Assembly: GCF_900249755.1 (NCBI RefSeq)
Contig: NZ_LT976854.1
Coordinates: 2,285,709-2,349,708, forward strand
Length of the DNA: 64,000 nt
Direction of reading: 5' to 3'
From: Cupriavidus taiwanensis
GTDB lineage: Bacteria; Pseudomonadota; Gammaproteobacteria; Burkholderiales; Burkholderiaceae
The stretch's first letter is position 1. The number at the start of each line of letters is the position of its first letter. Made by a program: the position numbers and the translations under genes. Below, piece after piece: positions 18,994 to 21,610 of the stretch. Below the pieces are notes generated by a model. It was not told where the DNA came from. It searched no databases and saw nothing but the letters and a program-made list of their open reading frames with translations.

Positions 18994-19482
18994 TCAGGCG
19001 CTGGCCGGCAGTTCCGGCACGCGTTCCGCGTCGGCGGCGTCGGCACGGCATTGCGGGCACACGCCATACAACACCAGCATATGCTCGCGCAGCACGAAGG
19101 CGTTGTCGGCGGCGACCTGGCGCTGGCGCTGCTCGATGCTCTCGTCGCGGAATTCCTCCACGCGGCCGCATGCCACGCAGATCAGGTGGTCGTGGTGACC
19201 GCCTTCGTTCAGTTCAAATACGGCGTGGTCGGACTCGAAGCTGTGCCGCAGCAGGATATCGGCCTGCACCAGCTGGTTCAGCACGCGGTACACCGTCGAC
19301 AGCCCCGCATCCTCGTCCTGGGTCAGCAGGATGCGGTAGACGTCTTCCGCGCTCAGGTGCCGCCTGGCGCTGGTTCGGAACACTTCGAGGATGCGCATCC
19401 GCGGCGAGGTGGCCTTCAGGCCGGCGCGCTTGAGATGGATCGGGTTGGTGCTCTCGGATGACATGGCGGATGGCATAGGCAT
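18994..19482 (-). CDS. fur: Fur family ferric uptake regulator (paralogue)
   Basis: A 162-residue Fur protein. The winged-helix domain (about 15-90) has [14 protein letters not shown] and [16 protein letters not shown]. The metal site follows with [11 protein letters not shown], and a second CxxC (CPQC) lies near residue 146, forming the structural zinc site together with CVAC. An iron-loaded dimer would repress iron-uptake genes. It may start at 19482 or at the internal ATGs at 19476 or 19464. The second half ([29 protein letters not shown]) is typical. The 430 bases upstream hold a Fur-box-like promoter and hairpins. Confidence 0.9.
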
Positions 19483-19665
19483 GCTGCGGCTGGCGCCCCG
19501 CAGTCAGGGCGGCGCCCGGCCTGGCGCCGCACGGGGCACGGCGTCAGTGGCTTGGCGGAATTTCAGGCGGGAAGCGCCAGGGCCGGCCGGGCGCTGGCGC
19601 CCTCGTCCCTGGCGGCGCGACGTGCCTGCACGGCGCGCGGAATAAAAAGATGGCCTGGCTTGCCG

Positions 19666-19717
19666 CCGGAAGACGCGATCGGGAAAGCGGGGTCTGGTTG
19701 CTTTCCCGATCTTCCGG
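19666..19717 (-). ncRNA. Strong stem-loop in the leader upstream of fur
   Basis: Arms of 12 bp (19677-19688 and 19700-19711) are extended by a further 6 bp (19666-19671 and 19712-19717) across a 5-base bulge, with an 11-base loop. Such a stable element inside a noncoding stretch suggests a structured RNA, transcribed leftward from the promoter at 19918-19946. Whether it belongs to a separate small RNA or to the 5' leader of fur is open. Confidence 0.45.
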
Positions 19718-19735
19718 AGACTGGCTACTACCAAA

Positions 19736-19754
19736 CGCTCCGCGTGACGGAGCG
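19736..19754 (-). ncRNA. Second stem-loop in the same leader
   Basis: Perfect 7-bp arms (19736-19742 and 19748-19754) with a 5-base loop, 19 bases from the larger hairpin. Both lie downstream of the same minus-strand promoter. Confidence 0.4.
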
Positions 19755-19917
19755 GTCCCCACAAAAGTCGGTGTCGAAGGCCGCGGGGGCGGCATCCGGA
19801 AATCTGTCTTGCCTGCCAGCGCTGGTCGCCGTCGCGTGCCGCGAGGTGCCAGCCTGGCCGGTCTGCCTGCGCCGTCCGGTGCTTGGTTCGATGCGCCGTG
19901 CGTCAGGCAGTGATCGA

Positions 19918-19946
19918 ATAGTAAATGGGAATCGATCTCATTACAA
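19918..19946 (-). promoter_or_regulatory. Promoter with Fur-box-like spacer
   Basis: On the minus strand, TTGTAA (19941-19946), exactly 17 bases, then TACTAT (19918-19923). The spacer contains TGAGATCGATTCCCA, close to the Fur operator core TGAGAATnATTCTCA (12 of 15 on the opposite strand). Fur-Fe2+ bound there would block polymerase. Transcription would start near 19911, 430 bases before the Fur start codon. Confidence 0.6.
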
Positions 19947-19990
19947 GAAAAATTTTCGGGGGTGGCAGGATTTCCGGGTTGCGCGCGTCC

Positions 19991-21610
19991 TCAGGCAACC
20001 TCCGTCTCCAGGGCCACCCCGTCCCGCCCGGGATCCGCCCCGCCATCGAGTTCCCCGTTCACCAACCGGATCGCATGCACCCAGGCGATCGTGTAGTTAT
20101 ACGGATTGCGAATCACCTCATAGCCTTGCGCTTCCAGCTGCGCGGTGAGGTAGCGCGGAATCCGGTTGCACACGTCGATGGCATTGCTGGTCGACGAAAA
20201 GCGCGGTGCGGACACGGCCGGCTGCATCGCCATGCCGAAATCCACCACGTTCAGGATCGTCTGCAGCACTCCCATGGCAATCTGGGTGCCGCCCGGCGCG
20301 CCTAGCACGATCTCCGGCTTGCCGTCGCGGAACACGATGGAAGGGCAGGACGAAGTGAAGCGCCGCTTGCCCGGCGCGATGCTTCCGGCGCGGCCTGGGC
20401 GCGGATCGAAGACGCCCATGCAGCCGTTGTGCAGGAAGCCAAGCCCCGGCGTCATCACGCCCGAAGGCATTGCCAGCGAATGGGTCAGCGCAATGCAGTT
20501 GCCCTCGCCATCGACTACCGACAGGTGCGTGGTATCGCGCGGTACCACATGGCCGGGATTGACGCGGGCAACGTCGACCTTGTCGCCGGCGACGATGCGC
20601 GCGGCCAGTTCGCCGGCATAGCCCTTGTCGAGCAGGCGCGCCAGCGGCACGTCGACAAAGGCCGGATCGCCGACGTGCAGGTCCTTGTCGCGCGTGGCTG
20701 CCTTCATCGCCTCGCAGACGATGCGCAGGTATTCCGGCGTGTTGTGGCCGATCTGCGCCAGGTCGAATCGCTCGAGGATGTTTAGCATCTCGATCAGCAT
20801 CACGCCGCCGCCCGGCGGCTGGTTGGTGGTGATGGTGCGGTTGCGATAGGTGCCGGTCAACGGCGCGGTGCGCTCGACCCGGTAGTCCCCCAGGTCCGTG
20901 CGCGACAGCAGGCCGCCATTGGCCTCCATGTCGGCGACGATGCGCCCGGCGATATCATGCAGATAGAAAGCATCCGCGCCCTCGCGTGCGATCTGCTCGA
21001 GGGTGTCCGCAAAGTCGGGATTGCGCAGCGGCGTGCCGATGGTCTTGGGTGATCCGTCTTCGCGGCAATACAGGCGCCGGCCATCGGCGCTGTACGCGAG
21101 CCGTTCCAGGTTGCTGGCGCGGCCCAGCGTGGCCGCATCGGTCCAGAACGCATACATCCCCGGTCGCACGAAATAGCCGTCGCGCGCCCAGCGGATCGCC
21201 GGCGCGATGACTTCCTGCCAGGGCAGCCTGCCGTAGCTGCGGTGAATCGCCTCCAGCCCACGCAGCGTGCCCGGCGTGGCGATCGATTGGTAGCCGATGT
21301 CGTTGAGCCGGTCCTTCACGAAGAAGCCGAAGCCGTCGCGCGCCTCGCCTTCGAGCTTGTCGGCCCACATGTCCGGCGTGGCGCGCGCCGGTGCGGTGGC
21401 GTGGAAATCGATGTACTCATGCGCCTGGTGCGACGGCATATACACCGCGGCGGTGCCGAACCCGGCGATGCCGCACATCAGCGGATCGACCACGGTCTGG
21501 GCAAACGCGCAGGCGACCGCGGCGTCCGCCGCGTTGCCGCCGGCCCGCAGGATTTCGATGCCTGCTTCCGCCGCTTCGGGCTGCGGGCAGACCACCATGC
21601 CTTTTTTCAT
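19991..21610 (-). CDS. Gamma-glutamyltransferase family protein (no signal peptide)
   Basis: A 539-residue Ntn-hydrolase of the gamma-glutamyltranspeptidase family. The autocleavage and nucleophile motif is DTTHLSVVDGEGN near residues 352-364, so the precursor would split into large and small subunits before the second Thr. Other marks are GGNAADAAVA near 24, NQPPGGGVML near 265, the small-subunit PGKRRFTSSCPS and GAPGGTQI. There is no signal peptide, so it is cytoplasmic, unlike classic periplasmic Ggt; substrates may be amidated or gamma-glutamyl compounds imported by the linked transporter. The gene lies 29 bases after the Bug protein gene, in one operon. Confidence 0.88.
   Translation of the reverse strand: MKKGMVVCPQPEAAEAGIEILRAGGNAADAAVACAFAQTVVDPLMCGIAGFGTAAVYMPSHQAHEYIDFHATAPARATPDMWADKLEGEARDGFGFFVKDRLNDIGYQSIATPGTLRGLEAIHRSYGRLPWQEVIAPAIRWARDGYFVRPGMYAFWTDAATLGRASNLERLAYSADGRRLYCREDGSPKTIGTPLRNPDFADTLEQIAREGADAFYLHDIAGRIVADMEANGGLLSRTDLGDYRVERTAPLTGTYRNRTITTNQPPGGGVMLIEMLNILERFDLAQIGHNTPEYLRIVCEAMKAATRDKDLHVGDPAFVDVPLARLLDKGYAGELAARIVAGDKVDVARVNPGHVVPRDTTHLSVVDGEGNCIALTHSLAMPSGVMTPGLGFLHNGCMGVFDPRPGRAGSIAPGKRRFTSSCPSIVFRDGKPEIVLGAPGGTQIAMGVLQTILNVVDFGMAMQPAVSAPRFSSTSNAIDVCNRIPRYLTAQLEAQGYEVIRNPYNYTIAWVHAIRLVNGELDGGADPGRDGVALETEVA

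Follow-up and report, generated by a model that had tools for sequence, protein, structure and literature searches.

Organization of the locus

The window (the whole stretch of 64,000 nucleotides of Cupriavidus taiwanensis DNA that was analysed) carries a promoter with a predicted Fur box in its spacer, a leader of variable length, a conserved RNA element, a second fur gene (furB) and a small open reading frame (ORF). All of these lie on the minus strand and are listed here in the 5′ to 3′ direction.

19918–19946 (−): promoter TTGTAA-N17-TACTAT, with the Fur box within its spacer; read directly, conserved pattern
19924–19942 (−): 19-bp predicted Fur box AATGAGATCGATTCCCATT; from sequence, near-invariant in a 41-locus alignment
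19768–19910 (−): 5′ leader of the primary transcript, variable in length and sequence among orthologues and presumably removed by cleavage after CCGA
19642–19767 (−): BrrF-family sRNA core of 126 nt (‘BrrF2’); RF02692, covariance model R1, alignment and covariation
19754–19767 (−): 5′ seed CUUUUGUGGGGACC, all 14 columns invariant in a 26-sequence alignment of both copy types
19736–19754 (−): hairpin 1, CGCUCCG...CGGAGCG; 7 pairs, 5 double-changed
19666–19717 (−): long bulged hairpin, loop with CCAGACCCC; 9 modelled pairs, 8 double-changed, 89.7% of cells paired
19644–19648 (−): U-run, putative 3′ end; TTTTTAT in 17 of 17 rows of this locus type
18994–19482 (−): second fur gene (furB), possibly co-transcribed; PF01475, 3.2e-41; NF006999, 169.8 bits
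18675–18932 (−): small Cys-containing ORF after furB, a synteny marker where furB is absent

The promoter consists of TTGTAA (19946–19941), a 17-nt spacer TGAGATCGATTCCCATT (19940–19924) and TACTAT (19923–19918), and its position would place the transcription start at about 19911–19910. The first-pass annotation had described this promoter, with a Fur core in the spacer, as facing no nearby gene. Direct reading confirms its coordinates, as well as the distance of about 430 nt to the first ATG of the fur-type ORF at 19482, but the absence of a nearby gene does not hold, as this ORF is a second fur gene downstream on the same strand.

Taken alone, the match to the Fur consensus is weak and hardly above chance: the box differs from TGAGAATNATTCTCA at three positions, two such sites occur in the window where 0.37 are expected, and at least two are found in 5 of 100 shuffles. 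A strict sigma-70 promoter and terminator scan of 19400–20000 found nothing. The case is not built on the motif, and the promoter and Fur box are judged real because they are conserved across loci. The pattern TTGWAATG-N12-ATTTA lies 88–180 nt upstream of the RNA core in all 46 loci examined, which comprise 41 genus loci (the window's own included, drawn from the 58 genus genomes with a match), four Ralstonia-type loci and C. metallidurans CH34; lack of such conservation had been named beforehand as a finding that would refute the first-pass interpretation. In the 41-locus alignment hardly any change is seen in the promoter and the element, whereas leader and flanks differ in length and sequence. 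The promoter layout is shared with the hemP promoter of the same genome, CTTGTAATGATAACAATTCTCATTTAATAT (locus L055). In every locus the Fur box sits directly in what is predicted to be the RNA's own promoter, and Fur control is predicted from this arrangement.

The conserved element is a member of the BrrF family

The Rfam family RF02692 (BTH_s39) aligns to the window element over positions 1–130 of its 130 (61.6 bits, E 4e-14). This match was obtained with a permissive scan of 601 bases (19400–20000, E up to 10), which otherwise returned two plus-strand families (E 2 and 3.6). The score lies below the RF02692 gathering score of 77, and a scan of the window at gathering threshold gave no match. 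The family was matched over its full length in 19 of 19 loci tested (L056 being the window copy again), six above and 13 below the gathering score; the six above all belong to other genera and have hemP upstream. As the 12 of 18 other loci that miss the gathering score include copies directly behind hemP, we read it as too strict for distant members. The 77-bit cut-off leaves out the Cupriavidus and Ralstonia-type loci tested, in which Rfam would miss the family, and also hemP-linked loci L096, L100, L101 and L102, all of which match the full model.

BTH_s39 of Burkholderia thailandensis has been named as a homologue of BrrF (ncS63), an RNA of Burkholderia cenocepacia that rises more than 50-fold on iron depletion and has targets of the RyhB/PrrF type (PMC7377471). 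BrrF is 126 nt long, is cut from the hemP mRNA before GUAUU, with CGA|NUN as a tentative cut rule, and ends at a run of U with no preceding stem-loop (PMC7377471). The RF02692 match in the window starts at 19767, just after CCGA, and CGA|CUU at 19768/19767 fits this rule by sequence; the rule is poorly tested at this site because several orthologues have CCGT or CAGA at the putative cut. The predicted processed RNA of about 126 nt would start with CUUUUGUGG. An RNA from about 19911, as first proposed, agrees with the conserved promoter and its predicted start, whereas the conserved RNA itself begins about 143 nt further downstream. Its seed contains G8G9, both in invariant columns of the 26-sequence alignment; these are the positions mutated in the BrrF experiments, where they are functional guanosines (PMC7377471). 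At the U-run the hemP-linked rows of the alignment are more variable than the rows of the window locus type. A GC-rich inverted repeat, GCGCGCCGTGC...GCACG.CGCGC (19612–19638, minus strand), directly follows the U-run and recurs in many orthologues, with no T-run behind it.

The window copy thus resembles BrrF and BTH_s39 in its full-length model match, its 126-nt length, the G8G9 seed, the CGA|NUN-type boundary, the U-run and the hairpins. Its genetic setting is different. In PMC7377471, as far as its available text goes, brrF is ‘always’ downstream of hemP and has no Fur box directly upstream. In the window, no hemP lies between the promoter and the RNA, the sole hemP found in the genome being on another contig; the copy has its own Fur-box promoter, would not be released from a hemP mRNA, and lies upstream of furB on another replicon. 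Its seed also starts with CUUUU rather than GUAUU, and its score falls short of the family cut-off. By homology, the element is a BrrF/BTH_s39 relative, filed as a hemP-free paralogue because it is not downstream of hemP. An unrelated novel sRNA was considered against this homology and rejected.

The first-pass annotation had suggested a functional counterpart of RyhB or PrrF. This may hold for the targets, since the homologue BrrF is reported to regulate targets of the RyhB/PrrF type, but judged from sequence the counterpart by descent is BrrF and not RyhB or PrrF. As for RyhB of E. coli and PrrF of Pseudomonas aeruginosa, a Fur-box promoter is followed by no protein gene before the RNA, and the predicted targets are iron-sparing. 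PrrF1 and PrrF2 are two copies in one genome, as are the BrrF copies here. Unlike the RyhB and PrrF loci, the window locus has a leader before the RNA and its two copies are on different contigs; neither family was matched by Rfam in 19400–20000 at E up to 10. According to the available text of PMC7377471, BrrF resembles none of the known Fur-regulated sRNAs in sequence.

Conservation of the element follows base pairing

Alignment A1 comprises 26 selected sequences, 17 of the window locus type and nine hemP-linked, which are a subset of those fetched. In its RNAalifold structure 95.1% of cells pair, and both partners have changed in 13 of 23 pairs. None of 500 shuffles reached this double-change count, although the shuffles do not allow for relatedness, and ‘further pair types’, one of five covariation measures, was reached by 11 of 500. 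When the partners are slid by 1–3 columns, pairing falls to 37–49%. It is hairpin 1 and the long bulged hairpin that carry the covariation; neither the outer closing stem nor the small intervening hairpin has a pair with double changes, which leaves both unproven. The 7-bp hairpin (19754–19736), the long bulged hairpin (19717–19666) and the five-T run (19648–19644) of the first-pass annotation are all present, and the compensatory changes that it proposed to look for were found in both hairpins.

These observations bear on a coding interpretation. Open frames of 86 and 83 amino acids overlap the region, so that the conserved stretch might encode a short leader peptide or protein. Core lengths of 130–134 nt and leader distances of 88–180 nt among orthologues break these frames, conservation follows base pairing, and the portions of the alignment inspected contain no conserved start codon. 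With the frames broken and conservation tracking the pairing, this explanation was rejected, its probability being close to negligible.

Two copies in the genome and a possibly displaced hemP-linked copy

The exact core motif occurs at exactly two places in the 5.95-Mb genome, and model R1, a covariance model built from 26 genus-only sequences, also finds two. The window copy is on contig C2, upstream of FurB; the second is on contig C1, about 100 bp behind the sole hemP found.

L055:1500–1614: hemP-linked brrF copy, about 100 nt after hemP; 55.3 bits to RF02692

The two copies have an identical 14-nt seed, the same hairpin plan and the same promoter layout. They differ in that the hemP-linked copy carries a terminator-like hairpin and T-run behind it and scores lower against RF02692 than the window copy.

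A 511-base region around the element was matched in 58 of the 60 genus genomes. Across the family, model R1 has matches in 307 of 398 genomes and 13 of 25 genera. Among the 57 genus genomes of at least 90% completeness (out of 60), R1 finds the copy at the window locus in 56 and the hemP-linked copy in 33: two copies are present in 33 genomes, the window-locus copy only in 23, and neither in one (G023). Looser filters, applied to 21 of the 23 single-copy genomes and to G023, gave the same outcome. The second copy adjoins hemP in all 33 two-copy genomes; in nine genomes the paralogous match immediately follows an ORF with a HemP-like end. The HemP family PF10636 was found in 58 of 60 genus genomes. 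A hemP end was recovered in 25 of 29 loci; in 10 of these the core lies within the next 110 nt, and in 15 it does not. The hemP loci without a core (L108–L115, L117, L120–L122, L126, L131 and L135) have a Fur-type promoter upstream in 14 of 15 cases. G023 (L113) keeps hemP with neither BrrF copy and no FurB-type match, and is the sole such genome of the 57.

Outside the genus and the Ralstonia type, the core follows a HemP end in all 10 loci read (recognized by pattern in eight and by eye in L096 and L102), and seven of these contain GUAUUGUGGGGACC, in agreement with the published BrrF 5′ end GUAUU. All six Ralstonia-type genomes have one strong copy (102.8–110.3 bits) and one weak (32.1–57.0 bits). 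In the four of these six whose contexts were read, the strong copy has a Fur-type promoter and precedes a Fur gene, and the weak copy follows hemP. An exact-pattern scan of named genomes returned 48 places, all in Cupriavidus, Ralstonia or entries named Burkholderiaceae bacterium, and the Ralstonia-type core, compared with plasmid records, matched in Cupriavidus alone. The chromid of C. metallidurans CH34 carries the element.

Taken together, we consider it very probable that the iron-sparing sRNA BrrF has a second gene here, with its own Fur-box promoter and no hemP and probably derived from a hemP–brrF locus. As to its origin, the four Ralstonia-type leaders read share TCCATCGAC with the leader of hemP in this genome, and the new locus may accordingly have originated as a copy of the hemP–brrF locus that lost hemP.

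Among the matches listed from the open-access literature (main text), there was no report of a second BrrF locus; nor did they name an iron-responsive sRNA in Cupriavidus or Ralstonia, except for a partial hemP-linked sequence noted for Cupriavidus in PMC7377471. In the parts of the main text available, neither a 2024 review nor the BTH_s39 paper mentions Cupriavidus or Ralstonia. A transcription-start study of CH34 under copper, not iron starvation, did not detect the B. cenocepacia sRNAs, as stated in its available text (PMC7563307). What those matches do not describe is the arrangement read here from the DNA, a hemP-free copy of a known iron-sparing sRNA family, with its own promoter and near furB.

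Relationship to the downstream furB gene

The element is separated from furB by 159 nt of 81% GC. A single Fur-like place was found on the CH34 chromid, and the window furB matches it; furB of C. metallidurans is Rmet_5746, located on the chromid (PMC13192273), and the two are probably the same gene. FurB lies downstream of the element in 42 of the 46 loci. In the four remaining loci (L048, L050, L052 and L054) a homologue of the small ORF comes directly after the sRNA. This ORF encodes 85 amino acids with conserved Cys/His residues (CxDCxLRxVCVHRPDHTGCNWSAEVDFP), and a search of Pfam and NCBIfam with a longer, 130-residue version gave no match; its product may bind metal or an Fe-S cluster and be linked to the locus.

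The frequent presence of FurB, with no terminator found by the strict scan between the element and furB, might indicate that the conserved region is mainly a cis-acting regulatory leader of furB, functioning by attenuation or in a riboswitch-like manner, from which no sRNA is released. In C. metallidurans AE104, moreover, FurB but not FurA is among the iron-uptake genes that are up with EDTA compared with zinc (PMC5069749). The distribution of the element argues otherwise. A Fur-family search found seven genomes without a FurB-type match, namely the four whose loci were read and G031, G033 and G042 (two of them with a completeness of 91 and 94%); in the seven the best Fur match scores about 158 bits and the next at most 77.8, against 136.8–141.6 for FurB in four FurB-carrying genomes. 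The RNA element is retained in all seven, and the Fur-box promoter in the four read, so that the element is not merely a fur leader. The same RNA is also found after hemP, away from fur, and its homologue is an experimentally studied trans-acting sRNA (PMC7377471). A pure riboswitch-type fur leader was rejected, as the element and, in the four loci read, its promoter are kept without FurB, and a predominantly cis-acting role at this locus is improbable. Of the two possibilities raised at the outset, an sRNA or a long fur leader, both have support in silico; the sRNA is favoured by its homology and its retention without FurB, and a leader may exist as well in most genomes.

The second BrrF gene that we propose is indeed compatible with a dual output, in which a single Fur-repressed transcript would yield both the BrrF2 sRNA and the furB mRNA. 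Both lie on the same strand in the same order with no intervening terminator found in the strict scan, and the rise of FurB with EDTA is what read-through from the Fur-box promoter into furB would produce. On the other hand, a terminator or a second promoter might lie in the GC-rich stretch ahead of furB, and the scheme is inapplicable to genomes without FurB. We give dual output an even chance. If true, iron starvation would deliver an iron-sparing RNA and a second regulator together, and this could explain why furB and not furA is up with EDTA in C. metallidurans.

A wider scenario can be put forward tentatively, with somewhat less than even confidence. In Cupriavidus and Ralstonia an sRNA born from the hemP mRNA may have been copied, have lost hemP and gained a Fur-box promoter, and then have displaced the original, which is without a model match in 23 of the 56 Cupriavidus genomes with the new copy and has degenerated in those Ralstonia-type genomes that were read. 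The RNA would now be born in the furB leader in most genomes, one Fur-repressed transcript giving rise to an sRNA and a second Fur. The possible intermediates are found in living genomes: both copies, the new copy only, and the new copy without a fur neighbour. If true, the family would clearly illustrate how an sRNA that starts out as the 3′ end of a coding mRNA can become a gene of its own.

Candidate targets and proposed mode of action

An unrestricted, accessibility-weighted target scan did not separate the known BrrF targets from background: of 305 background entries, 49 were as good as or better than sodB, 120 than sdhC, 195 than acnA, 237 than fumA and 242 than sdhA. A test with the 5′ seed, a choice taken from the BrrF paper, was run after the accessibility scan had failed. 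Against a background of 303 that includes some target genes, 18 equalled or surpassed fumA, 41 sodB, 62 acnA, 221 sdhA and 291 sdhC. The background ORFs were called by a codon-GC score in GC-rich DNA, and their start sites are approximate. Scans with a loop seed and a 3′-end seed gave no clear signal. The absence of signal for sdhC and sdhA with the 5′ seed is as reported in Burkholderia, where this seed of BrrF matters for the tested targets except these two (PMC7377471).

A perfect seed complement of at least 8 nt within −20 to +15 is present in only two of the 303 own-genome ORFs, one of which is fumA. Its 10-nt complement, CCCCACAAAAUG, extends over the start-codon region (CCCCACAAAATG). 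The acnA gene, outside the 303 ORFs, has an 8-nt seed complement at its start codon. For a survey of fumA elsewhere 20 further loci were fetched, and two without a fumA match were omitted. A seed site of at least 10 nt is found in 15 of the 18 remaining genes, with differing surrounding bases. All 15 come from the 16 genus loci; the sixteenth, from a single-copy genome (L261), has 7 nt. The Burkholderia-type fumA has an 8-nt site at −28, and the Ralstonia-type gene, cut near the locus end, was scored 5 by the script, with GGTCCCCAC visible just before the ATG. The site is kept in four of five single-copy genomes examined (L253, L254, L255 and L259; not L261). Since the seed is common to both copies, the fumA site cannot tell which of them acts.

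The second BrrF gene could then operate as follows. With enough iron, Fur-Fe would block the promoter. When iron is short, transcription would start near 19910, and cleavage of the leader near 19768 would leave an RNA of about 126 nt ending in the U-run. Its single-stranded 5′ seed may pair with mRNAs of iron-using enzymes, of which fumA is the best supported (over the start codon) and acnA the next. Such pairing would block translation or trigger decay, and iron would be saved. In genomes with FurB downstream, read-through would raise FurB too. Should this prove true, a group of metal-resistant and biotechnologically used bacteria would have a dedicated, testable iron-sparing RNA.

The own-genome fumA (L228:7393–8916) starts about 7.5 kb from the hemP start, and in 18 of 20 other genomes a fumA gene was found upstream of hemP at a distance of no more than about 12 kb.
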